DNA of 64,000 bases from Phycisphaerales bacterium (lineage in GTDB: Bacteria > Planctomycetota > Phycisphaerae > Phycisphaerales > SM1A02), in NCBI GenBank assembly GCA_030748575.1, contig JASMLR010000005.1:1-64000 (forward strand), in the 5' to 3' direction. The notes beneath the pieces are model-generated. The model saw only the letters and a list, made by a program, of their open reading frames with translations, was not told the origin of the DNA and made no database searches. Below, piece by piece: positions 7,175-58,117 of the stretch; positions within the stretch are counted from its first letter, which is position 1; each line of letters opens with the position of its first letter. The position numbers and the translations under genes are program-made.

Positions 7175-8152
7175 CTACGCGGAGACCGATGCGGTCGGAA
7201 CCGTGTCGAGAATGTCGCTGAGCAGCTCGTCGGCCGTCACGCCATCGGCCTGCGCCTCAAAGTTCAGCACCAGCCGGTGCCGCATGGCAGGCAGGACAGC
7301 GGCGCGAAGGTCCGCTTCCTCAATCTCGCTGCGCCCGTCCCGCGCCGCAGCAACCTTGGCCGCCAGTGACAACGCCTGTCCGGCGCGGGGAGAGGCCCCC
7401 AGCCGCACGTACCGGTCGATCCGTGGTGGGGCGAAGGCCTGACCGGGGTGCGTCGCCAGCACGATGTTGGCCATCGACGCCAGGAGCGGAGCCGGGATTC
7501 CGACCGATCGCACCGTCTTCTGATGAGCCAGGATCGCGGCCGCGTCAAGTACAGGCTCGATCGTCGGTTGGGACACCGAGGTCGTTCGCGAAAGAATCTC
7601 GCACAACGCCTCCCGCCCGGAGTAGCCGACCAGCAACTTGAAGAAGAAGCGGTCGAGTTGCGCCTCGGGAAGCGGGTACGTGCCCTCCTGCTCAATCGGA
7701 TTCTGCGTGGCCATGACCAGGAAGGGCGGTCCGAGCGGACGCGTCTCGCCGGCGACCGTGACCGCCCGCTCTTGCATCGCTTCCAGCATCGCGGACTGCG
7801 TCTTGGGCGTAGCGCGGTTGATTTCATCGGCGAGCACAATCTGGGCAAACACCGGGCCGGGGCGAAACACGAACCGCCGGCCGTCGGCATCTTCTTCGAC
7901 GACCGTAGTGCCTGTGACATCCGCGGGCATGAGGTCGGGCGTGAATTGAATGCGAGAGAAGTCCAGCGAGAGCGCCTGGGAGAGCGAACGAACCAGCAGC
8001 GTCTTGCCGAGCCCGGGTACGCCCTCAAGCAGGACGTGGCCGCCGGCGAAGAGGCTCGTCAGAACACCCTCGACGACTTCCTCATGACCGACAATGACTT
8101 TGCCAAGTTCGCTCCGCAGGCGGTCCCAGTCCTGTCTGAATGACGCGGTCAT
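7175..8152 (-). CDS. moxR: MoxR-type AAA+ ATPase
   Basis: AAA+ chaperone-like ATPase of the MoxR family, 325 residues. The P-loop GVPGLGKT is near residues 43-50 and the Walker B-type VLADEIN near residue 110, with sensor sequence ATQNPIEQEGTYPLPEAQLDRF. Such proteins usually act with von Willebrand A-domain partners (DUF58/BatA) in maturation of enzymes or envelope proteins, but no such partner lies beside it here. The ATG at 8152 has no SD and carries TACGCT 6 nt upstream. Confidence 0.92.
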   Translation of the reverse strand: MTASFRQDWDRLRSELGKVIVGHEEVVEGVLTSLFAGGHVLLEGVPGLGKTLLVRSLSQALSLDFSRIQFTPDLMPADVTGTTVVEEDADGRRFVFRPGPVFAQIVLADEINRATPKTQSAMLEAMQERAVTVAGETRPLGPPFLVMATQNPIEQEGTYPLPEAQLDRFFFKLLVGYSGREALCEILSRTTSVSQPTIEPVLDAAAILAHQKTVRSVGIPAPLLASMANIVLATHPGQAFAPPRIDRYVRLGASPRAGQALSLAAKVAAARDGRSEIEEADLRAAVLPAMRHRLVLNFEAQADGVTADELLSDILDTVPTASVSA

Positions 8153-8158
8153 GCCCGC

Positions 8159-8164
8159 AGCGTA
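8159..8164 (-). promoter_or_regulatory. Candidate leaderless -10 element for moxR
   Basis: TACGCT on the minus strand, 6 nt before the moxR ATG at 8152, with no SD motif. It sits directly downstream of the G-rich tandem repeat at 8184-8246. Confidence 0.45.
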
Positions 8165-8183
8165 GCACCGGGCTTGCTCCCCC

Positions 8184-8246
8184 GGGGGGGGCTCGGCCGG
8201 GGGGGGCTCGGCCGGAGGGCTCGGCCGGAGGGCTTGGCCGGTGGGC
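8184..8246. repeat. G-rich short tandem repeat upstream of moxR
   Basis: Four copies of GCTCGGCCG (the last with one change) start at 8191, 8206, 8219 and 8232, separated by runs of three to seven G. The spacing of 13-15 nt and the G runs could form hairpins or a G-quadruplex on the plus strand. It lies between the moxR start and the stop of the exported protein gene at 8261. Confidence 0.7.
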
Positions 8247-8260
8247 CAAAGCCGGTGGGC

Positions 8261-9229
8261 TCAAAAACGAATCGTGCCCTGCACGCCGAAGATGGGCGCC
8301 GGGTCGTGGTCGCTCGCCCAGACGTCGCTTCCAGCAGCCGTCGTGGACTTCAGTCGGCCATACACCGTGGCGCCAACGAAGGCCCGCAGGCTGCCGGTCG
8401 GGCACACGTCGAAGTCGATGAATGCCATCACGGGGAGTGCTTCGGTCGTCCCGACGCCCCCGGGCGTGGGCGTATCGTCTCCCAGTCGGAACCGCTGGTA
8501 GTCAAACACCGCGGAGATCCCCACATCCACCCGATCATCGAGCGTGTAGACCAGTTCGGCTCCACTCTGATTGGCCCAGCCAGTCGTCAGATTGGTGCTG
8601 AGCATGAGCCGCTCCGAGATCTGCCAGTCCAGGACAATCACCGGGTAGATGAGCAGGCTGTCCTCGATGCGGCTCCGAACGCCGACACCGCCGCCGACGA
8701 CCAGCTCGCGCGAGAACGCGTACGCCGCGCCGATCATGCCGCCCCCCTCAAACCCGTCACCAAGCGAACCACCCTGCTCGGCAGCCCATCGGGCCTGCCC
8801 GCCGCCGAACACCTGCCATTGCCGCGTCGCCTGCCACTGCAGGCCTGCATCAATGTGGGTCGTGTTGACGCTTGACCATGGGGCCACCAGGTTCTCGAAC
8901 GAGAAGTTGTCGCGTTGATATCGACCGGACAGGAGGAGTTCCAGATCGTCCCGAAGGGGAATCCTCGCTCGCGCCAGCACGTGCCCCCGATCGTGCGAAA
9001 ATCGGCCGGACGGCGTGTCCGTGAGATCCGTCCGCAATTGCCAGACCCAGCCGCCGCCGACGGACCCTGCGGCCGAGGTGTCCTCGGACTGGCCGAGCGG
9101 CGCCACCGCCCGGGGCGATGGATCGGCCGCCGGAGCGGGCGCGGGATCGGGCGCCGCAAGCGTCAGCGGACCGGACCAGAAAGGTGTCGGGTTCAGCACG
9201 CTGGCCAGAACAATGGACGTTGTCAACAT
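8261..9229 (-). CDS. Putative outer-membrane beta-barrel or exported beta-rich protein
   Basis: Not assigned to a named family. The start is ATG at 9229 because GGAGG lies about 7 nt upstream and the product then begins with the signal-like MLTTSIVLASVLN. The 322-residue product has an Ala/Pro-rich segment after the signal. It then shows alternating short beta-strand-like stretches rich in Gly, Trp and Tyr and ends in phenylalanine, as outer-membrane barrels do. Barrel status is inferred from pattern only. Confidence 0.6.
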   Translation of the reverse strand: MLTTSIVLASVLNPTPFWSGPLTLAAPDPAPAPAADPSPRAVAPLGQSEDTSAAGSVGGGWVWQLRTDLTDTPSGRFSHDRGHVLARARIPLRDDLELLLSGRYQRDNFSFENLVAPWSSVNTTHIDAGLQWQATRQWQVFGGGQARWAAEQGGSLGDGFEGGGMIGAAYAFSRELVVGGGVGVRSRIEDSLLIYPVIVLDWQISERLMLSTNLTTGWANQSGAELVYTLDDRVDVGISAVFDYQRFRLGDDTPTPGGVGTTEALPVMAFIDFDVCPTGSLRAFVGATVYGRLKSTTAAGSDVWASDHDPAPIFGVQGTIRF

Positions 9230-9317
9230 GCGTGGTTTCCTCCGCGGTCGCTCGCCGTTCCACGCTACCAGACCGGTCACCGGATCCGGCGAGCACCGCA
9301 CCTGCGATGGCTCGCGA

Positions 9318-9333
9318 GGCCCCGAAAGGGGTC
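9318..9333 (-). terminator. Hairpin just after nusG
   Basis: A six-pair stem (including one G-T pair) with a 4-nt loop lies four bases beyond the nusG stop codon. There is no T-run, so it is at best a weak or Rho-assisted end of the tuf-nusG transcript. Confidence 0.35.
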
Positions 9334-9336
9334 GAA

Positions 9337-10065
9337 CTAGTCTTCGCCCTTCTCGACCTGCCAGTACTCCAGTTCGACCGGTGCCTGGCGTCCGAAGATG
9401 GTCACCAGCACGCGAACCATGCCCTTGTCCGGCATGACTTCGTCGATGGTGCCTTCGTAGCCCTCGAATGGGCCTTCCTTGATGGTGACGTGGTCCCCGG
9501 CGACGAACTCCAGTTTCATCTCCGGCTCGGCGTCCGGCATCTTTGAGTCGAAGAGCATCTTCTCGACCTCGGCGGGCGACATCGGCGTCGGCTTGCCGGC
9601 CGTGCCGACGAAATCACCGACGCCCGTCGTCTCCTTGATGAGGAAGAAGACATCCTGCGGAATGCGGCCGTCCTCAAGCATCATCTCGACAAAGATGTAC
9701 CCGGGGTAGAGCTTTGTTTCCGTGATCCGCTGCTTGCCGCCCTTGAGCGTCCGGGTCTTCTCGGTGGGCACCATGATTCGGCCGATTCGCTCGGAGAGAC
9801 CCTCGATCTCGACCTTCCGCTGAAGCGTGTCCCGAACCGAGTTCTCCTTGTTGGAGGCAACGCGGAGCACGAACCAGTCCATCCCCTTGCGATACATCGG
9901 CATGTCGACCGCGGGGTCGAATGCATCCTCGGCATCCGTGGCCGGCGGCTCGGTCGCCGGCGCCTCGGGCGCTGGCGCCTCGGGCGCCGCAACCTCAACC
10001 ATCTTCGTCTCTGGCGTCTCGGCGGATCCTGCCTGATCGATCTGTTCGTGTTCGGTCGTCATCAT
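9337..10065 (-). CDS. nusG: Transcription antitermination/termination factor NusG
   Basis: Binds RNA polymerase and couples it to Rho and ribosomes. The NGN domain starts at DWFVLRVASNKE and contains the KLYPGYIFVEM motif; the C-terminal KOW domain includes GDHVTIKEGPFEGYEG. About 60 residues of Ala/Pro/Glu-rich, acidic, probably disordered sequence precede the NGN domain, which most NusG proteins lack. Two adjacent ATGs (10065, 10062) are possible; a longer in-frame start is unlikely because it would reach into secE. It follows secE as usual, but the ribosomal genes rplK/A/J/L that normally come next are missing. Confidence 0.93.
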   Translation of the reverse strand: MMTTEHEQIDQAGSAETPETKMVEVAAPEAPAPEAPATEPPATDAEDAFDPAVDMPMYRKGMDWFVLRVASNKENSVRDTLQRKVEIEGLSERIGRIMVPTEKTRTLKGGKQRITETKLYPGYIFVEMMLEDGRIPQDVFFLIKETTGVGDFVGTAGKPTPMSPAEVEKMLFDSKMPDAEPEMKLEFVAGDHVTIKEGPFEGYEGTIDEVMPDKGMVRVLVTIFGRQAPVELEYWQVEKGED

Positions 10066-48473: not shown

Positions 48474-48858
48474 GTGCCTATTCCATGCACAACGACGTTT
48501 GAGTTTCAGGGCCAGACCATCGTCGAGTACAAGGGGCTCGCTCGCGGCATCGTCGTACGGTCGCCCACGATCAGTCAGGGATTCCTGGGTGGTCTCAAGA
48601 GAATCGTCGGCGGCCGCATCGGCGCGTACCGAGCCATGTGCGAAGAGACCCCGGGGGAAGCACTTCAGCAACTGCGTTGAGCATGCCGCAGGCGTGGGGG
48701 CCAACGCGGTCGTTGGGCTGTGATACGACTCGTCGGAGCTCGTCAATGCCGCCACCGAGGTGTTCTGCTACGGAACGGCCGTCGTCATTCGGCCCGCCAG
48801 CGGCTCAGTTGGCACCCTCCGAGCTTTCGGTTTGGCCAGATTCCTGGTTTGCAGGTAG
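48474..48858 (+). pseudogene. UPF0145/YbjQ-family gene broken by a frameshift and a nonsense codon
   Basis: GTG 48474 with an AGGAGG SD starts a frame whose product (TFEFQGQTIVEYKGLARG, then RIVGGRIGAYRAMCEE) matches the UPF0145 (YbjQ) family. It stops at TGA 48678-48680, after 68 residues. The missing half, ANAVVGL then YDSSELVNAATEV and YGTAVV, continues in the +1 frame. It is interrupted there by TGA 48721-48723 where an Arg codon is expected, and would run to 48858. Two lesions in 45 nt make sequencing error alone less likely. UPF0145 proteins form pentamers of unknown role. Confidence 0.75.
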
Positions 48859-48940
48859 GCTGGGCGCAGCGACACGAAACTTACCTCAACTGACCCTGCA
48901 AGGAAGGGGGTCGGTTCTCGCAAGCAGGGGAGCAATAGAA

Positions 48941-51331
48941 ATGGCACATACGAGAATCTGGACGTTGGGCACTTGGTGCACGGTGGCCTTCTTCGGCCTT
49001 GCGGCGGCGGAGGCCCACGGAGCCGTCCTTTCCGTCGGCGACGGTCAACCCTATGCCACGATTCAGAGCGCGCTTGACGCCGCATCGCCCAACGACACCA
49101 TCGAGTTGTATGAGACGGCCTCCTTTGATGATTTCACTGAACACGTGGAGATCGGCGATCTGGCGATCACCATTCAGGCCGCAGAAGGCGAGAACATCCG
49201 CTGGTCCGGCGGCGCCTTTGCCGCCGTCTCCATCACGGGAGGCACGGGGCAGAAGGTGTTCCTGCGAGACATCGCGTTTGTCGCCGATGGTTCAGGCCCC
49301 GACAGTGGTAGACGAGGCGGCGGAAAGAACCCCGAAGCCGGGGGCTGCGTGTATGCCGACAGCGCGATCCAATTGACAATGGACCGGTGCGCGTTCTCGC
49401 AGGGTGACGCCGTGGGCGTGCCTGGAATGGGCGTGTTCTCATCTCACCCGAACGCCATCGTCATGGTCGATGCGTGCTCGTTCTACTATCTCGATAGCGA
49501 CGAGGATGCCGAGGCTTTCAGCGGGGAAGGCGCCGGCATCTTTATGGTGTCGGGCCAACTCGACGTCCATGACAGCCTGTTTCTGGAGTGCAACAGCCTG
49601 TACGGTGGTGCTGTCGCCGGCGTGTTTGCTGACATCAGGCTCTACCGATGCAACTTCATGAACAATAGCGCCGCCGGCTATGGCGGAGCCGTTTCCCTCT
49701 ATCTCTGTTACTCGCAGGTGGAGGAGTGCTGGTTTGCGGGCAATACCGTTTCGGGCGCCTCTACATTGGGCGGCGCCATTGGCGGCTACGCGTCTGAAGT
49801 TGCGATCGAAGCCTGTGACTTCGATGTGAATCAAGTTGTTGTCGAGGTCCTCGGCGGCCCACTTGGCGGGTGGTCTTCATATGGCGGAGGTGCTATCGGG
49901 ATCCTGCAATCCCCGGGACTGAGCATTGACCAGTGCTCGTTCCAGGCCAATGCTGTCACGACTGTCAGTGAGAATGACATTCTCTACGGCGGGGCGGTCA
50001 TGGCCAGCAGCAGTTCGCTCTCGCTGACAAACTCCTCGTTCTCGACCAACACAGCCGAGAATGGACCTTCGGTTGGCGGTGCCGTATGCCTCATTGGGTT
50101 CGACGATGCCGGCGGGCCCCGCCGCGGCTTGGAAATGACGACGGTGGTGTCTGCATGCACCATGACCGGCAACTCCGCCTCACTGGGTGGCGGACTTGCG
50201 CTGATTCCGGGACCAGGTGAGACCGACTACCACATCTTCCAGATCGATGGGTCGACCTTTACGGCGAATTCGACAACTGGTGGATTCGCCAACATGGATG
50301 ACCTTGAGAATGTCGGTTTGCAAGGCACGCCCACCGGCGGTGGTCTCTTCATCAGTGGTCTGACACTTGGAACCGTACTGACCTCTACGTTCTCTCAAAA
50401 CGACTCGCTTGACTACGGTGGTGGTGCGGCATGTCTACTGGAGGTCGGGGGTGGCGTTCAGTTTGCCAACTGCCAGTTTGATGGGAACATTGCCGGGGAC
50501 CCTGACTTCTCAGGCGGGAACGGGGGTGGCTTGAGTGTCCAGGTCGAGGCCGGTGCAGTCCGAAGCGGAATCACCCTCCTGGGGGGCAGTGACTTCCTGG
50601 AGGTCCTTGGGACCTCATTCACCTCAAACGTCGCGCTGGCCATGGGTGGAGGACTGTCGATCACCAGTAATGCCGGGGGCGGTGGCGAACTCACCAACTG
50701 CCAGATTCGGGGAAACTCGGCTGGAAGCCTTGGAGGGGGTCTCTCCTTCGCGCCCACGGGAGACGACGCCAGCAGCAGTCTGCTCACGCTGGACGGTGTT
50801 GACGTCACCGCGAACAGCTCGTGGATTGGGGGGGGCATCCTTGCCTGGATCGAGAATCCGGTACACCTCGGGGGGACTCCCACAGGCCTGGCCATGGAAG
50901 CCTGCACTGTCATCGCCAATGAAGCGAACGTTAGTGGTGGAGGCCTCGTGCCACTCAACTGTGATCCGTTGGTCATCTCGTCACTCTGGTCAGGCAACAC
51001 GGCCCACATCGAAGGAGATTGCTTCGGCGATCTCTTTGGATCGGAATTCAATTTGACCGCATTCAGCGGCAACACGTTCTGTGATCTCGGTGATGATCCC
51101 TGGGGAGGGTTCGACCCTACGACCCTGCTTGAGAACAACGATGTCACCGATGACTGCGTTGGCTCCTGCCCGTGCGATCTCAATGGCGATGGCGCCGTCA
51201 ACGTCTCCGATGTGCTGACGTGGCTTCAGTTCGATGCAGAGAGTGATCCTCAGGGTGACCTCACAGGCGGCGGTTTGATCGACGCCAACGATCTGATCTT
51301 CCTGCTCGCTTACTACGGCACCAGTTGCTGA
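48941..51331 (+). CDS. Secreted right-handed beta-helix protein with GC-type dockerin-like end
   Basis: 796 residues starting MAHTRIWTLGTWCTVAFFGLAAAEAHG, a clear signal peptide. Residues about 30-720 form a parallel beta-helix: an ATIQSALDAASPNDTIEL opening followed by many short repeats of the Asn/Gly-rich N-x-A-x-x-GGG type, as in PbH1 polymorphic outer proteins. The last 55 residues (CDLNGDGAVNVSDVLTWL, then DANDLIFLLAYYGTSC) carry two EF-hand-like calcium loops, the short planctomycete dockerin-like module thought to mark extracellular or surface proteins. A GGGGAG SD precedes ATG 48941. The ligand or substrate is unknown. Confidence 0.88.
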   Translation: MAHTRIWTLGTWCTVAFFGLAAAEAHGAVLSVGDGQPYATIQSALDAASPNDTIELYETASFDDFTEHVEIGDLAITIQAAEGENIRWSGGAFAAVSITGGTGQKVFLRDIAFVADGSGPDSGRRGGGKNPEAGGCVYADSAIQLTMDRCAFSQGDAVGVPGMGVFSSHPNAIVMVDACSFYYLDSDEDAEAFSGEGAGIFMVSGQLDVHDSLFLECNSLYGGAVAGVFADIRLYRCNFMNNSAAGYGGAVSLYLCYSQVEECWFAGNTVSGASTLGGAIGGYASEVAIEACDFDVNQVVVEVLGGPLGGWSSYGGGAIGILQSPGLSIDQCSFQANAVTTVSENDILYGGAVMASSSSLSLTNSSFSTNTAENGPSVGGAVCLIGFDDAGGPRRGLEMTTVVSACTMTGNSASLGGGLALIPGPGETDYHIFQIDGSTFTANSTTGGFANMDDLENVGLQGTPTGGGLFISGLTLGTVLTSTFSQNDSLDYGGGAACLLEVGGGVQFANCQFDGNIAGDPDFSGGNGGGLSVQVEAGAVRSGITLLGGSDFLEVLGTSFTSNVALAMGGGLSITSNAGGGGELTNCQIRGNSAGSLGGGLSFAPTGDDASSSLLTLDGVDVTANSSWIGGGILAWIENPVHLGGTPTGLAMEACTVIANEANVSGGGLVPLNCDPLVISSLWSGNTAHIEGDCFGDLFGSEFNLTAFSGNTFCDLGDDPWGGFDPTTLLENNDVTDDCVGSCPCDLNGDGAVNVSDVLTWLQFDAESDPQGDLTGGGLIDANDLIFLLAYYGTSC

Positions 51332-52453: not shown

Positions 52454-52502
52454 GCCGCGAGCGTCCCCCGGTGGCCCGGGTACGCCATCACCCGGCCTGC
52501 CA

Positions 52503-52508
52503 TACCAT
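52503..52508 (+). promoter_or_regulatory. Possible -10 element for the RibB-RibA gene
   Basis: TACCAT, 13 nt before ATG 52522, giving a leader of only about six bases with no SD. If this promoter is used, the in-frame ATG at 52507 is not transcribed and 52522 is the start. Confidence 0.35.
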
Positions 52509-52521
52509 GCGCGGTTCTCCC

Positions 52522-53727
52522 ATGCTCAGTCCCATCCCTGACATCCTTGACGACCTCCGCGCCGGCAAGCCCATCGTTCTGGTCGATGACGAAGGCCGCG
52601 AGAATGAAGGCGACTTCGTGTACGCCGCTGAATGTGTGGATGTGGACGCCATCAACTTCATGACCCGGGTCGGGGGAGGCTATCTATGCGTCGCGATGGC
52701 CGGTGAGGACTGCGACCGGCTCGACCTCGGGCCGCAGGCTGCCGTCAACACCTCGCTCCGCACGACGGCCTTCACCGTCAGCGTGGACGGTCATCCCAAG
52801 CACGGGGTCGGCACCGGCATCTCCGCGGCCGATCGGACCAGGACCATTCAACTCCTCGCCGATCCCACCTCCCGAATGGACGACTTTGTTCGGCCCGGAC
52901 ACATCAATCCGCTCCGAGCGAGAAACGGCGGCGTACTCGCGCGGACCGGACAGACCGAGGGGTCCGTCGATCTGTGCAGACTTGCAGGGCTCCAGCCCGC
53001 CGCCGCCATCATCGAGATCGTCAGGCCTGACGGTGAGATGGCGAGAATTCCGGACCTGGAACCACTCTGCGCCGAACACGGCATTCGCATGTGCAGCGTG
53101 GAGCAGATCATCGAACACCGGCTTGCTCGCGAAACGCTGGTGACGCGGCTTGACCCGAAGGATGGCTCGCCCATCGAGACGCCATGGGGACCGTTCAGGT
53201 TGGTGGCATTCGAAAGCGCCGTCGATCCGCAACCACACATTGCGTTGTGCCGAGGCGACGTCGGATGTGTCGATGCCCACGGCCAGCCGATCCAGATCAA
53301 CCGACCGGTCCTGACGCGGGTGCATCGGCGTGATGTGCTGGGCGACATCTTCCGTGTCGGCGAAGCGCCCTCGGCCGACATGCTGCATGCCTCCATGAAG
53401 GCCATCGCAGACGCCGACGAAGGTGTCCTGGTCTACCTGCGACCCGAGCACATGGGGGACAGCCCCTTGTCTCAACTCCTGCACCGAGTCCGTCGACCGG
53501 TCGCGGACGACCCGGACATGCCCGATCTGACGCGATCTGAAGGTGTCGGAGGCCGGGCGGTCCCGATCGACACACGCAACACCGGTACGGGAAGCCAGAT
53601 CCTGCGCGAACTGGGCATCCATCAGATCCGGTTGCTCACAAGCACCGAACGGACATGGCACGGCCTGAGCGCCTTCGGCCTCGAGATCGTCGAGCACGTC
53701 ACGCCGGTGGGTACACACCACGGCTGA
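52522..53727 (+). CDS. ribB: 3,4-dihydroxy-2-butanone 4-phosphate synthase fused to degenerate GTP cyclohydrolase II
   Basis: 401 residues, two domains. The N-terminal RibB half has VLVDDEGRENEGDFVYAAE and RPGHINPLRARNGGVLARTGQTE, complete for the ribulose-5-phosphate to DHBP step of riboflavin synthesis. The C-terminal RibA-like half lacks the family zinc motif: the usual ECLTGD and CDC cysteines are replaced around RVHRRDVLGDIFRVGEAP, so GTP cyclohydrolase II activity is unlikely. Such fusions (RibBX) are known where another RibA exists. ATG 52522 is preferred, ATG 52507 possible. Confidence 0.88.
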   Translation: MLSPIPDILDDLRAGKPIVLVDDEGRENEGDFVYAAECVDVDAINFMTRVGGGYLCVAMAGEDCDRLDLGPQAAVNTSLRTTAFTVSVDGHPKHGVGTGISAADRTRTIQLLADPTSRMDDFVRPGHINPLRARNGGVLARTGQTEGSVDLCRLAGLQPAAAIIEIVRPDGEMARIPDLEPLCAEHGIRMCSVEQIIEHRLARETLVTRLDPKDGSPIETPWGPFRLVAFESAVDPQPHIALCRGDVGCVDAHGQPIQINRPVLTRVHRRDVLGDIFRVGEAPSADMLHASMKAIADADEGVLVYLRPEHMGDSPLSQLLHRVRRPVADDPDMPDLTRSEGVGGRAVPIDTRNTGTGSQILRELGIHQIRLLTSTERTWHGLSAFGLEIVEHVTPVGTHHG

Positions 53728-53771
53728 CACCCATCGCCGGCAGCGATGTGGTCCCACGCGACCTTCGGGGC

Positions 53772-54995
53772 TCAACGCATGCCGTTGCGGCGAATGATCT
53801 CGCGGAGCGTGGCGGCGCCGGCTTCGGATGCGCCGATCTCTCCCTGTGACTCCATCACAACCCACGCCGCTGCGTTTCGGACCGAAGACAGCAGGTCTTC
53901 GTCATACACCATCGGCTCAAGCAGCGCAATTCTGTTCTCTGGAGTCATGCGCTCGCGGGCCTGCCAGATGCCGAAGAGGGCCATGGCCTGACCATCGGAC
54001 ATCTGCGCTGCGACCTCCCTGCACATCTGAAGCTTCATGACAAAGTGCTTGGTCTGCTCCATGAAGTCATCATCGAAGTGATCGTGGCCACCGCCCATGG
54101 CCGCGAGCAGCTCGTCGTGCGCCTCTCGCAGTTCTGGAGGCAACTGCTCAATCATCTCCCACACGGCTTCGGGATGCTCGTGCATCTCATGGATGAACCG
54201 CATGTGCTGCTCAAGCATGCCGCGTCCCATGTCGTGGCCACCCATGTCGTGGCCACCCATATGTGGATGTGAGCCACCCATATGCGGGCCGCTCTTGCAC
54301 TGGTCGCCTTTGCACTGGCCACCCATGCAGCCGGGCATCCCGTGACCACCCATCCCGTGTCCGCCCATGCCGTGTCCGCCCATGCCGTGGCCGCCCATGC
54401 CGCCGTGGCCACCCATGCCAGGCCCGCCCATGCCGTGACCACCCATGCCGTGGCCGCCCATGCCGTGGCCGCCCATGCCGTGGCCGCCCATGCCGCCGTG
54501 GCCACCCATGCCAGGCCCGCCCGGCGCCATCTGCCAGTGACCCTCCCATCGCTCGCCATCCGGCTCGCCCGCCATGAACACGAACACATCGTCCATCTCG
54601 CCGCGTTCTTCGCCGCCCGATCCACCGAATGGAATCCGCCTTCGCACCCGCTCGCCGTCTTCGTCTTCCATCTCGACGACGGCCTCGACCCGAATCTGCG
54701 GCGTAATGTCACCTGACATGAACCGGCCGATGATCTCGCCGATCGTGCCGGATTCGTCCGCAGCCATGGTCTCATCAATCCCGGCCATCACCGCGCCGAT
54801 GCCTTCCATGTCCTCCAGGTCAATCTCGATCTCTCGCCGCTGACCATTGTGGTCGACAACGATCATGCCCTGCCCGTTGGAGACGCCGACGCTGACTTCG
54901 ACCTCCTCCTCTGCGCCGATCACCGGAGCAAACAGAACGCTCGGGCTCGCGGCCAGCGCGGACATGATGGCGAGTGCAGCAACGTGGATATACAT
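53772..54995 (-). CDS. Exported Gly-Gly-His-Gly-Met repeat protein, possible metal binder
   Basis: 407 residues starting MYIHVAALAIMSALAASPSVLF, a signal peptide; the start is fixed by a GAGGAG SD. Residues 1-155 hold an acidic, soluble domain. Residues about 159-256 consist of more than a dozen GGHGM-type units plus CMGGQCKGDQC and HMGG variants, so Met, His and a few Cys dominate. The last 150 residues are helical, with QLPPELREAHDELL and an Arg/Glu-rich end. Met/His-rich exported proteins often bind copper, but no such activity is shown. The repeat DNA is near-identical between units, hence recent expansion. Confidence 0.75.
   Translation of the reverse strand: MYIHVAALAIMSALAASPSVLFAPVIGAEEEVEVSVGVSNGQGMIVVDHNGQRREIEIDLEDMEGIGAVMAGIDETMAADESGTIGEIIGRFMSGDITPQIRVEAVVEMEDEDGERVRRRIPFGGSGGEERGEMDDVFVFMAGEPDGERWEGHWQMAPGGPGMGGHGGMGGHGMGGHGMGGHGMGGHGMGGPGMGGHGGMGGHGMGGHGMGGHGMGGHGMPGCMGGQCKGDQCKSGPHMGGSHPHMGGHDMGGHDMGRGMLEQHMRFIHEMHEHPEAVWEMIEQLPPELREAHDELLAAMGGGHDHFDDDFMEQTKHFVMKLQMCREVAAQMSDGQAMALFGIWQARERMTPENRIALLEPMVYDEDLLSSVRNAAAWVVMESQGEIGASEAGAATLREIIRRNGMR
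54285..54530 (-). repeat. Coding tandem repeats for the GGHGM array
   Basis: Minus-strand units of 15 nt encoding Gly-Gly-His-Gly-Met, with an interspersed Gly-Gly-Pro-Gly-Met block that appears twice with the same neighbours (about 54405-54430 and 54500-54525). This points to a segmental duplication inside the array. The array length is probably variable between strains and prone to assembly collapse. Confidence 0.7.
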
Positions 54996-55054
54996 GGGGG
55001 AACTCCTCTTGAGACAGGGAGCGTAGGGGACGCCGGCTGGTCTGTCGAACGGCA

Positions 55055-55086
55055 CGAGGGCCGATGGGGATTCCCATCGGCCCTCG
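55055..55086 (-). terminator. Perfect 14-bp hairpin downstream of ftsK
   Basis: Stem 55055-55068 with 55073-55086 and loop GATT, no mismatch and very GC-rich. It lies downstream of the 13-residue frame that follows ftsK and 60 bp upstream of the GGHGM gene, so it probably ends the ftsK transcript. No T-run is present on either strand. Confidence 0.6.
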
Positions 55087-55438
55087 GCACGATCAATCTA
55101 TTCAACGGCCCTCTTGGAGCCGCGAGGCACGCACTCCGTGCGAACCCGTCGGTCGCGCGGGTTAGGTGTGCGTGCTTCCGTTGTGGTCACCATTGATGGT
55201 CATCAGGATCACCTCCTTGTCATCAGGCCCGTCCCTCGCGGTCGTCGCTGACGTGACGTTCAGCTGCCGCGCGTCTTCCGCCTCCGGCGTCCCGAAGGCA
55301 CTCCACCGCGGGTTGCCGCGGAGGGTGGCGAGGCGCGTCCCGGGCCGGGGACCTGTCCGGACACTGGACGTCCGTCGCCACCTGATGTGTATCGGCCCGG
55401 CGACGGGTTGGTACGTGAATGAAATCTCCGGCCGGCGA
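55056..55438. other. 383-bp gap between ftsK and the GGHGM gene
   Basis: Contains the 14-bp hairpin, a 13-codon frame with a very strong SD and a repeated TCATCAGG octamer around that SD; each is listed. A longer minus-strand frame runs through the gap without a start codon before the 13-codon ATG. No other gene is supported. Confidence 0.55.
55162..55203 (-). CDS. 13-residue frame with an extended Shine-Dalgarno
   Basis: ATG 55203 encodes MTINGDHNGSTHT then TAA. It is preceded by AAGGAGGTGATCC (55206-55218), a 13-nt match to the complement of the 16S rRNA 3' end, with GGAGG 8 nt from the ATG. Such a complete match is rare and would give very strong ribosome loading. It lies 235 bp after ftsK. 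It could be a leader peptide, a real small protein or the relic of a longer gene. Confidence 0.35.
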   Translation of the reverse strand: MTINGDHNGSTHT

Positions 55439-58015
55439 TCAGGCCCGGTGTTCCCCGGGCAACTCGTCCGGGACACCGTCGAGATTGTCCGGGTCATCGT
55501 CGTACTCGTATTCGTACTCGTACTCGACCGACGCATCATCGGAGCCTTCGTCGCCTTCGGAATCTTCCATCGCCTGCATCTGCTCCCACTCCTCAAGTGA
55601 GATCATCACCTCACGCGCGACCGACCCCTTGTGTTCTCCCAGAATGCCAGCCTGTCCCATCTGATCCACCAGCCTGGACGCGCGGGAGTACCCGATGGCC
55701 AGCCGCCGCTGCAGAAGCGACACGCTGCCACGCCCGGATTCGATCATGATGCGAACTGCATCGTCGAACATGGGATCCCGCTCTGTCGGCTGCCCGCCGA
55801 CTTCTCCGTCGCTTCCAGGACGCAACTGGATGAGCGATCGCTCGAAACTGGGGGAGGCAACATCCTTGAGGAACCGAACGACCTTGCGGCTTTCACCGTC
55901 GTCTACAAGCGTCCCCTGCGCACGGCGAACTTCGGGATTGCGCGGCGTCACAAGCATCATGTCGCCCTGGCCGAGCAGAAGTTCGGCCCCCTTCGCGTCC
56001 AACACAATCCGGCTGTCCATGCCGCTGGAGACCTTGAATGACATGCGGCACGGCATGTTCGACTTGATCAGGCCGGTCACGACGTTGGCCTGCGGTCGCT
56101 GTGTTGCAAGAATCAGGTGAATGCCGACTGCCCGGGCCTTCTGGGCGATTCGGACGATGGCCTGTTCGACTTCCTTGTTGGTCATCATCAGGTCGGCCAA
56201 CTCGTCGATGACGAACACGACGTAGGGCACTGACTTGGGAATCTTCGCGTCTTCCAGGTCGTTCTGGGGCTGGAGCCGCTCTCGCTTCTCCTCCTCGGTC
56301 AGCGAGTTGAACGTACCGATATCCCGTACGCCCGCCTCACGGAACAGCTCATACCGCTCTTCCATCTTCCGGACTGCCCAATCGAGGATGGCGGCAGCCC
56401 TGTTCATCTCGGTCACTACCGGGCAGGCGAGGTGGGGGATGTCCCCGAACATGCTGAGCTCGACCATCTTCGGATCGACCAGAATGAGTTTGACCTCGTC
56501 GGGCCGCTTGAGGAAGAGCCACGACATGATGATGGAGTTGATGCAGACGCTCTTGCCGGACCCAGTGGTTCCGGCGATGAGCATGTGGGGCATCTTCACA
56601 AGGTCTTCGACAAGCGGCTCACCACTTGCATCTTTGCCCAAGAACATCGGCAACACCATGCCGTCCGCGGCGCCGCTGCTGATGAGTTCCATGAGGCGGA
56701 CCTTCTCGCGGGATGAGTTGGGCACCTCGATGCCGATCGTCGTCTTGCCCGCCATCGTGGGGACGATTCGAATGTTCGGAGCGCCGAGGCTGCGAGCGAG
56801 ATCGCTGGAGATGCTGTTGATCCGCGCCACACGCGTCCCCGGCGCGAGCTGCACCGAGTACAGCGTGACCGTGGGCCCTGTGTCGATGCCCGTGACCTCG
56901 GCGTCGATCTCGTAGGTCGTCAACGCACTCTCAAGGGCCTCCGCCTGGCGGCGAACCATCTTCTCGGCGCGATCTGAGAAGTCTCCCTCGGGCTGAGCGA
57001 GCAACTCCACGGACGGGAACTCATAGCCCTCAAAGTCCTCCCGCTGGATATCTTCGTCCTTCGCGACATCCTTCTTGCCGGCGAAGATGCGAATCGGCAG
57101 CCGCTCAATCTTCTTGCGAAGTTCGGCCTTGGTGAGTTTCTTCCGCGGAGGTTCCGCTTCCCCGACGTCCTCGTCTTCTTCGTACTCGTCCTCGTACTCG
57201 TCCTCGTACCCATCCTCATACGCGTCGCCCGGATCGGCCTCCTCTTCTTCTTCTTCTTCCTCCTCTTCCTCTTCGTACTCGTCTTCTTCGTACTCGTCTT
57301 CGTACGCGCCGTCCCAGGCATCCGCTTCGCACGCCTCGTCAGGATCGGCAACCGCCGCGCCGCCCTCGGGCCGCAGCGAAAGATTGCGAAGCCACTGCAG
57401 GCGTGGGCGGGGCGTGTGCCTGCGGACCTGAACGGCCCGCCGCCAGAGCCACCCGGGAGCCGCGAGCATGACTTCATCCGCCGCGACAACCAGCCCGACC
57501 ACACAGAACACCAGCACCAGGACCACGGTGCCGATCGTTCCGAACGCAGGCGCCATCGTGCCGACGATGGCATGGCCCACCAGCCCTCCCGGCGCCCCGC
57601 CCAGGCCGCCCACACCGGGAAGCACGGCGGCGTGGAGGGACGACAGTCCGACCGCGGCCAGAATCAGGCCCACCGCGCGAAGGGGTGGGTGTCCCGGCCG
57701 TCGGCCCCGCATCGTCAGCACAAACCAGGCGCCAATGCCAACGACGATGAGCCAACTGCCCCAACCGATCAGGTGCAGAGACCAATACGCCAGCCAGGCG
57801 CCAACTCGGCCACCCAGATTGGCAACGTCTTCGTTCCAGGCCGACACCGCATGCGAGGGCGGGTCAGCCGACGAAAATGTCGCCAGCGAAAGCACCATGA
57901 AGCACCACAGACCGACGGCGGCGACCCACCCGGCCCAGCGAAGGGGTGACGATTCGTGCGTGCCGGATGGTGCGGAGCCGCGGCCACGCGTTCGAGCGGT
58001 TGCTGATGATGCCAT
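55439..58015 (-). CDS. ftsK: DNA translocase FtsK/SpoIIIE
   Basis: 858 residues. The N-terminal part has about four membrane segments; a strongly acidic Asp/Glu/Tyr linker of about 60 residues follows, including an unbroken run of about 12 Glu. The motor then has the alpha and beta domains with the P-loop GTTGSGKSV and RPQANVVTGLIKSNMPCR, and the C-terminal gamma winged-helix (DPMFDDAVRIMIESGRGSVSLL). It pumps DNA towards dif at division. ATG 58015 is chosen for its AGGAG SD, 5 nt upstream. Confidence 0.95.
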   Translation of the reverse strand: MASSATARTRGRGSAPSGTHESSPLRWAGWVAAVGLWCFMVLSLATFSSADPPSHAVSAWNEDVANLGGRVGAWLAYWSLHLIGWGSWLIVVGIGAWFVLTMRGRRPGHPPLRAVGLILAAVGLSSLHAAVLPGVGGLGGAPGGLVGHAIVGTMAPAFGTIGTVVLVLVFCVVGLVVAADEVMLAAPGWLWRRAVQVRRHTPRPRLQWLRNLSLRPEGGAAVADPDEACEADAWDGAYEDEYEEDEYEEEEEEEEEEEEADPGDAYEDGYEDEYEDEYEEDEDVGEAEPPRKKLTKAELRKKIERLPIRIFAGKKDVAKDEDIQREDFEGYEFPSVELLAQPEGDFSDRAEKMVRRQAEALESALTTYEIDAEVTGIDTGPTVTLYSVQLAPGTRVARINSISSDLARSLGAPNIRIVPTMAGKTTIGIEVPNSSREKVRLMELISSGAADGMVLPMFLGKDASGEPLVEDLVKMPHMLIAGTTGSGKSVCINSIIMSWLFLKRPDEVKLILVDPKMVELSMFGDIPHLACPVVTEMNRAAAILDWAVRKMEERYELFREAGVRDIGTFNSLTEEEKRERLQPQNDLEDAKIPKSVPYVVFVIDELADLMMTNKEVEQAIVRIAQKARAVGIHLILATQRPQANVVTGLIKSNMPCRMSFKVSSGMDSRIVLDAKGAELLLGQGDMMLVTPRNPEVRRAQGTLVDDGESRKVVRFLKDVASPSFERSLIQLRPGSDGEVGGQPTERDPMFDDAVRIMIESGRGSVSLLQRRLAIGYSRASRLVDQMGQAGILGEHKGSVAREVMISLEEWEQMQAMEDSEGDEGSDDASVEYEYEYEYDDDPDNLDGVPDELPGEHRA

Positions 58016-58117
58016 GACCACTCCTCATCGGCGTTTCCGGTGGCCGCCGACCAGCAATCCGCCAAGTGCAACCGCACCCTTTATCGGACGCATCACGCCG
58101 TCTGCCGGCGAATCGGT

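Follow-up and report, generated by a model that had tools for sequence, protein, structure and literature searches.

A probably exported protein with a histidine- and methionine-rich disordered spacer from a Phycisphaerales bacterium, a candidate extracytoplasmic metal buffer

The closest described systems to the locus treated here are metal-handling proteins with segments rich in histidine and methionine, which are summarized as far as excerpts of the respective reports go. SilE is described as a disordered 'molecular sponge' (PMC5008109), and short MX2H and HX2M motifs are reported to bind Ag+ with strong affinity (PMC10080550). In PcoB, a poorly conserved disordered region is required for copper efflux; mutation of its His or Met residues disrupts efflux, and a swap with the region of E. 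coli is tolerated (PMC12509749). Short His/Met-rich and His-rich stretches of the periplasmic copper protein CopI bind Cu(II) (PMC13308877). The present analysis concerns a gene of a Phycisphaerales bacterium (assembly GCA_030748575.1) in a window of 64,000 nucleotides, i.e., the whole analyzed stretch of contig JASMLR010000005.1, whose probably exported product carries a Gly/His/Met-rich spacer. We give an even chance to the reading that two folded modules of this protein flank a spacer which would bind and buffer metal outside the cytoplasm, its MxxH spacing being that of SilE. Copper in particular appears plausible, albeit less likely than a metal-buffering role as such. The protein is of modest interest and would represent a new family of putative function and a variant of known His/Met metal sponges.

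The likeness to SilE and PcoE lies in predicted disorder, a probable periplasmic location and MxxH/HxxM motifs (PMC5008109, PMC10080550), of which MxxH exceeds shuffled expectation here and HxxM does not. However, SilE is the whole protein of a sil operon, whereas the spacer described here lies between two predicted domains and no such operon was recognized; the protein has no Pfam or NCBIfam match, a result reached with no direct alignment to SilE and with the presence of a SilE model in the libraries unchecked. PcoB and CopB resemble it by an N-terminal region that is poorly conserved, disordered, His/Met-rich and functional after swapping (PMC12509749). Nevertheless, PcoB ends in an outer-membrane beta barrel, and none is predicted here, the C-terminal domain being all helical in the AlphaFold2 model. 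Likewise, CopI features His/Met-rich internal and His-rich N-terminal segments (PMC13308877), whereas the present protein matches no Pfam domain at all.

Architecture of the protein and its spacer

The architecture, predicted disorder, enrichment, family range and gene order reported in the following were computed. The preliminary description of this stretch had given the open reading frame (ORF) exactly; it is a real one of 407 amino acids, reading from an ATG at 54995 to a stop at 53772 on the minus strand, with an AGAGGAG Shine-Dalgarno sequence 7 nt ahead of the ATG. The draft genome (2.38 Mb in 85 contigs) contains no second match to the gene. Residues 157-260 contain 51 Gly, 18 Met, 15 His and 3 Cys among 104 residues (G/H/M 84/104), together with 3 Asp and no Glu, which bears out the early statement that about 100 residues are mostly Gly, His and Met. 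The Cys cluster CMGGQCKGDQC is likewise present, and the acidic N-terminal and helical C-terminal domains that had been assumed on either side are seen in the AlphaFold2 model. GGHGM occurs eight times in the protein, as opposed to at most once in 2000 whole-protein shuffles, and MxxH twelve times in residues 157-260, as opposed to a mean of 2.5 in 2000 segment shuffles, none of which reached that number. HxxM, with three occurrences, is not above the shuffles, and MxxM and HxxxM are absent from the segment, both owing to the 5-residue unit. This unit had been described for the whole array; regular GGHGM units are confined to about residues 160-221, and the remainder of the spacer is irregular. 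Nearly throughout the spacer, the predicted local distance difference test (pLDDT) of AlphaFold2 lies below 50, i.e., disorder is predicted. As to Cys in the spacers of six relatives of the same genus (placed by eye), CPxCG occurs in two (L003, L005) and the other four have none.

At the DNA level, Tandem Repeats Finder detected two periodicities, one of 15 bp at 54336-54495 (10.5 copies) and one of 93 bp at 54316-54522 (2.3 copies, 92% matches). Two 93-bp copies agree in 29/29 residues, and their 29 codons differ by four synonymous and no non-synonymous changes (p ~0.003 by site counts); these four changes hint at selection on the protein. The duplication implied by the earlier proposal of array growth from near-identical DNA units is thus backed by the 93-bp copies, which are, however, not identical.

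The full-length AlphaFold2 model (24 sequences) shows a leader helix, a beta-rich domain with strands at residues 32-59 and 103-123, and helices from residue 256 on. Block means of pLDDT amount to 56-76 over residues 31-120 of the N-terminal domain and fall below 50 from residue 125, and they are 72-73 at residues 311-330, 86 at 331-340 and 96-98 at 341-400. Folded alone (31 sequences), the C-terminal domain forms five helices with a mean pLDDT of 92. Its best structural alignment reached Z 10.0 (71 residues, rmsd 2.4, residues 334-404), which is below the tool's safe level for helical folds, and many of the rows were tetratricopeptide repeat (TPR) proteins. Chains of the envelope TPR protein BamD aligned at Z ~8-9 over ~65-71 residues. 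The domain is therefore described as resembling a TPR pair in its predicted model. Foldseek returned nothing at E 0.001 for this domain; PelB, another envelope TPR protein, formed the top row at only E 0.5, and the domain differs from BamD and PelB in being without a Pfam match. Fold searches with the full-length model yielded no row at E 0.001 and, in a second comparison, a best Z of 4.7; the C-terminal profile, run against PDB sequences, returned six rows, the best at E 0.13.

Export is suggested by the leaders, which were read by eye. The leader of the window's protein is hydrophobic and free of Lys and Arg, which would make it an unusual signal peptide, and relatives carry classical leaders or, in six members of genus g19, lipobox-like leaders. 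The signal peptide assigned in the preliminary description is thus supported by hydrophobicity and by the relatives, with a reservation for the composition of the leader itself. We infer that the protein, including the copy in the window, is probably exported. Lipobox-like Cys leaders (e.g., IPACSK, LAGCTK) were seen in loci L022, L024, L025 and L080-L082 (g19) as well as L093 and L094 (g41), again by eye, and these g19 and g41 members are probably lipoproteins.

Range of the family and composition of its spacers

No Pfam family at E up to 1 and no NCBIfam family at E up to 0.1 matched the window's protein, and other members gave just single weak or two-member matches. A role as substrate of a radical S-adenosylmethionine enzyme, i.e., as a ribosomally synthesized and post-translationally modified peptide, was suggested by HxsA4 (E 0.011) and GrrA-like (E 0.018) matches in one member each, which were dropped as weak with no search for the enzyme. 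With the whole protein as query, 30/151 genomes of the taxonomic family were found, of which G043, G072 and G069 owe their match to Gly-rich look-alikes. The corresponding loci L028, L029 and L030 and locus L031 of Cellulomonas, the sole and composition-only match in a scan of named genomes, match through Gly-rich stretches only and were excluded from the member counts; G069 holds a true member elsewhere (L094). L035 and L036, with 22-23 bits in very long frames, were dropped as well. The C-terminal profile matched 37/181 genomes of the taxonomic family, in 9/45 genera and in 7/9 genomes of the same genus. In an even draw across the phylum it matched 4/392, namely the genome of the window, one of the same family, G489 from another family and one weak match that was dropped. 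By these searches, the family with this C-terminal domain is narrow, and as a putative metal-holding protein family with neither a Pfam nor an NCBIfam match it is probably undescribed. G101 and G112, of the same genus and 83-84% complete, gave no match; as ribBA is only a fragment in G112 and was not found in G101, the gene may lie in missing sequence. Among the literature matches listed for GGHGM and related strings, all concern unrelated subjects according to title or start of abstract, and among those for Phycisphaer combined with histidine-rich terms none mentions Phycisphaer.

The C-terminal domain is the best kept part of the alignment, and the beta strands of the N domain are recognizable by eye in g1 and g19. 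The spacer hardly aligns, and spacers were therefore compared by composition. The score used is the highest count of His plus Met (H+M) per 50 residues, taken from residue 26 to the C-terminal domain, a region which was delimited by hand and includes the N domain. Mean contents of 8.7% His and 8.7% Met (33 rows) compare with 2.6% and 2.5% in 153 neighbouring ORFs, a background chosen by length that may include wrong frames. Scores of 11 to 23 were obtained in 30 of the 32 scoreable members (L026 is cut by a contig end) and reached by at most one of the 153 background ORFs, whose median is 6, 95th percentile 9 and maximum 14. L027 and L034 score 5 and L095, with an Arg/Asp/Glu-rich spacer, scores 6; the spacers of two g41 members reach 8 and 10, and their whole ORFs 9 and 10. 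Strong enrichment is thus seen in 30 of the 35 members measured, with two (g41) in between and no enrichment in those of G014, G032 and G489; a few members, such as those in G018 and G545 and the second match in G079, are outside this count. A strongly hydrophobic N-terminus is shared by 58 non-family ORFs, scoring at most 9, and by 13 family ORFs, scoring 5-22 (22, 22, 22, 18, 17, 17, 16, 15, 15, 15, 15, 9 and 5, i.e., at least 15 in eleven). Within the window, the protein scores 19 and the next highest of 50 ORFs 10.

The letters of the spacer vary among genera, with GGHGM here, HGHHGHGDGHGH-like runs in g36, a mixture of His, Asp, Glu and Met in g35 and MM..HGG in g19; the GGHGM array is absent from all six same-genus relatives seen. 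L010 has a separate GGHGGMHGM array, and L007, its sister in the C-terminal tree (92/88), repeats GGMPGM. As these sisters carry different repeats, the sequences indicate that Gly-rich repeats arose more than once and that His comes and goes inside them. Composition is kept while sequence turns over. On a tree built from 34 rows of the C-terminal domain, enrichment as a character requires 2 changes compared with 4.8 in shuffles and may have a single origin; the grouping of the three low rows is weak (36/58), and two of them form long branches. The preliminary description had regarded homologues with the flanking domains but no His/Met in the repeat as speaking against its reading; such a case exists at the edge of the family, where the members of G014, G032 and G489 carry the C-terminal domain without enrichment. 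Judging from these edge members, the C-terminal domain can work without His/Met enrichment, though they do not disprove that spacers of the six genera with enrichment bind metal. Besides, extreme His arrays (HGHHGHGDGHGH-like runs) were observed in L079 and L033, and L081 bears a second His/Asp-rich tail past the C-terminal domain.

Gene neighbourhood and competing explanations

Outside the window's genus, CorC is encoded directly upstream on the same strand in 17/17 fetched loci of the same taxonomic family (L042, L044-L055, L093-L095, L097, from 30 such genomes with a match). In these loci, ybeY precedes CorC in 16/17, nuoF precedes ybeY in 13/17 (only a short stretch being available for the remaining four) and ribBA lies close by in 14/17. 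Pfam identified CorC_HlyC and CBS in all three CorC neighbours tested, with CNNM just under the cut-off in two. In the window and six same-genus loci (L037-L041, L043), ftsK lies upstream on the same strand, 3 kb apart in L037, and ribBA is convergent except in L043, where it was not found. The CorC gene of the window's genome is located on contig C4 among other genes, without the spacer gene. Since the gene adjoins CorC elsewhere and ftsK here, and the CorC of this genome stands without it, gene order indicates that it moved between the two sites at some time. L056 (G489, from another family) showed none of these five neighbours. No silver or copper resistance operon was recognized around the gene, the neighbours being ribBA and ftsK here and nuo, ybeY and CorC in relatives. 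These surroundings do not make up a metal operon of the usual type, although CorC/CNNM proteins are linked to the export of Mg and Co. Copper-ATPase profiles matched three places in the genome, one over the cut-off and none on the window's contig; these matches are uninformative because all 14 control genomes match too. Scans of 53600-55500 for sigma-70 promoters and terminators found nothing. The features of the locus are compiled in Table 1.

Table 1. Positions of the spacer gene, its parts and the adjoining features in the window.
Feature	Position	Strand	Basis
Complete spacer-protein gene (407 aa; product His/Met-rich and probably exported)	53772..54995	-	ORF and Shine-Dalgarno sequence
Hydrophobic leader, ~residues 1-28, without Lys/Arg	54912..54995	-	read from sequence
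Acidic N-terminal domain (residues 29-156) with a three-stranded beta meander, helices and a further pair of strands	54528..54911	-	AlphaFold2 model
Disordered G/H/M-rich spacer, residues 157-260; 8 GGHGM units, 12 MxxH motifs	54216..54527	-	composition, motif counts, pLDDT
93-bp higher-order tandem duplication inside the array	54316..54522	-	Tandem Repeats Finder and copy comparison
Cys cluster CMGGQCKGDQC, residues 223-233	54297..54329	-	translation
C-terminal helical domain, residues 304-407, TPR-pair-like, best conserved part of the family	53775..54086	-	AlphaFold2, structural alignment, alignment
Structured RNA between ftsK and the His/Met gene	55121-55394	-	covariation
ribBA (DHBP synthase and GTP cyclohydrolase II), convergent neighbour	52471..53727	+	context only
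ftsK, upstream neighbour	55439..58021	-	context only

Some further observations concern the surroundings. In L037, a large protein gene (7636-10023, minus strand) stands between ftsK and the His/Met gene; this gene and one in the window (48638-51331, plus strand) encode, by eye, what we take to be large, probably exported proteins ending in dockerin-like segments. FtsK itself contains a low-complexity linker rich in Glu, Asp and Tyr with tandem repeats (window 57180-57301).

In the proposed function, an exported protein, lipid-anchored in g19, would join a small beta domain to a TPR-like dock by a long unstructured His/Met spacer. Acting as a sponge or buffer outside the cytoplasm, the spacer would bind many metal ions loosely, at weak sites that can replace one another, in the manner reported for SilE (PMC5008109, PMC10080550) and proposed for PcoB (PMC12509749), and the TPR-like domain would hold the protein to a partner; metal binding, the choice of metal and the partner are what we infer. 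The spacer of this species would have been remodelled into a GGHGM array, the MxxH spacing of which is suited to soft ions such as Cu(I) or Ag(I), and in other genera the mixture of His, Met, Asp and Glu could hold other divalent ions. A softer metal preference is arguable for the window's copy only, because its array holds 3 Asp and no Glu and the ranges of Asp+Glu over the scored region are alike among genera (16 to 28% in other genera versus 16 to 25% in the window's genus). A wider scenario, in which a new, lineage-specific family of exported metal buffers with this three-part build began as the extracytoplasmic partner of the CorC/CNNM ion exporter encoded ahead of it and the window's genus left the operon and switched to a Cu/Ag spacer, has a small chance of being correct.

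Several points weigh against a metal-buffering spacer. The comparison of silent sites comprises four changes, and the region scored for composition was bounded by hand with the N domain inside. L027, L034 and L095 keep the C-terminal domain without His+Met enrichment, g41 is intermediate, and the GGMPGM repeat of L007 lacks His, which occurs elsewhere in that protein. No metal family appeared in the Pfam or NCBIfam matches, and no copper or nickel gene was recognized among the identified neighbours (Pfam for nine, the others by eye). CorC also precedes the non-enriched L095 and L097, so the pairing alone is no sign of metal handling. Furthermore, the authors of the PcoB study consider, in the excerpt used, that length or disorder rather than composition may matter (PMC12509749). 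The copper or nickel handling put forward in the preliminary description is partly supported; it gains from the leaders, the enrichment in 30/35 members and the SilE-like MxxH motifs, and loses from the non-enriched edge members, the intermediate g41, an unconserved array, the lack of recognized copper or nickel genes and a neighbour that elsewhere is CorC.

With tandem 15-bp and 93-bp units, an array missing from six same-genus relatives seen, three relatives whose spacers or leaders are without enrichment and no metal genes recognized nearby, the spacer could be a mere flexible linker, its composition stemming from replication slippage in G+C-rich DNA and drift, with no metal role. This is unlikely in our view, though to be taken seriously: His+Met enrichment recurs in differing letter orders in 30/35 members versus 0/58 other ORFs with a hydrophobic N-terminus, and the 93-bp copies differ at silent sites only. 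The spacer protein might also handle nickel, cobalt, zinc or another divalent ion instead of copper, in concert with the membrane protein CorC, whose gene directly precedes it in other genera. The invariant upstream position in the 17 loci as well as the CorC_HlyC, CBS and near-threshold CNNM matches favour such a link. However, ybeY-corC pairs are common in bacteria, members without enrichment also stand behind CorC, the gene is not beside CorC in the window's genus, and Asp+Glu does not set the other genera apart, which renders this proposal improbable. Methionine as a scavenger of oxidants or histidine as a pH sensor would make use of residues in a predicted disordered segment just as well, yet neither chemistry accounts for the MxxH spacing or for the way the proportion of Met to His varies from genus to genus, and we give it only a slight chance.

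The structured RNA upstream and the meaning of the locus

Conserved blocks shared by four loci of the same genus gave the first indication of the structured RNA that separates ftsK from the His/Met gene. An alignment of five sequences gave 69 pairs, 17 of them with compensatory changes, and the copy in the window, taken singly, is only marginally more stable than shuffled sequences (z -1.34). A first model matched 61/181 genomes of the taxonomic family in 29/45 genera, once per genome apart from two genomes with two weak matches. Over 28 sequences, 24/36 pairs changed on both sides, 94.8% of cells pair, and 122 compensatory cells were counted where shuffles gave 35 and slid controls no more than 29, a result favoured by the derivation of the structure from the same alignment. 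A second model matched 71/392 genomes across the phylum in 49/267 genera, once each, the lowest scores lying close to the threshold. Over 55121-55394, all Rfam families stay below their thresholds; CC2171 scored 33.4 and 30.9 bits relative to a gathering value of 75 and leans on the Shine-Dalgarno sequence and a terminal hairpin. Identity with tmRNA or RNase P RNA is ruled out, both being present elsewhere in the genome. A candidate 'Rhodopirellula-1' is recorded in Proteobacteria and Planctomycetes, with no Rfam accession in its row of the excerpt (PMC2864571), and among the literature matches listed nothing describes the present RNA.

By eye, ftsK lies upstream of the RNA in 23/30 loci, and the downstream gene varies and is sometimes convergent; among the loci seen, the RNA precedes the His/Met gene only in the window's genus (5/9 genomes). 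Owing to this variable downstream neighbour, gene order argues that the RNA is not a leader of the His/Met gene. A GC-rich hairpin (55055-55090, minus strand) stands between the RNA and the gene, with hairpins of other sequence at the same place in same-genus relatives (by eye); it may end the RNA, although the terminator scan gave no terminator-like site there.

Inside the RNA lies a short ORF, which was surveyed in the best 30 of 63 matches (L114-L143) by a script taking starts 9-15 nt on and stops after 10-14 codons. All 30 loci feature a strong GAGGTG[A/G]T Shine-Dalgarno sequence followed by ATG or GTG at near-fixed spacing, and the ORF counts 13 codons in 29 of them (stops TAA 15, TGA 9, TAG 5) and 12 codons in one. 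The consensus of these peptides is [MV]xxxCDC[TM][RK]G[LS]Hx, and the window's own peptide, MTINGDHNGSTHT, is without Cys. In other families (L151-L158), an ORF of 11-13 codons occupies the same place in 7/8 loci, some with TTG starts, L157 being unresolved. Since entropy is not higher at third codon positions, silent change lends translation no support; the arguments for it are the position and start of the ORF, its varying stop codons and a single 3-nt indel. On these sequence features, the element is possibly an undescribed translated RNA, and it is probably the more novel object at this locus.

With its conserved 13-codon ORF and wide spread in the phylum, the structured RNA may matter more than the His/Met protein. 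If the spacer of the latter binds metal, however, it would represent an undescribed family that keeps composition, not sequence, as its repeat is rebuilt repeatedly. The family would then offer a natural experiment on the evolution of metal sponges and on the extracytoplasmic needs of a CorC/CNNM operon.
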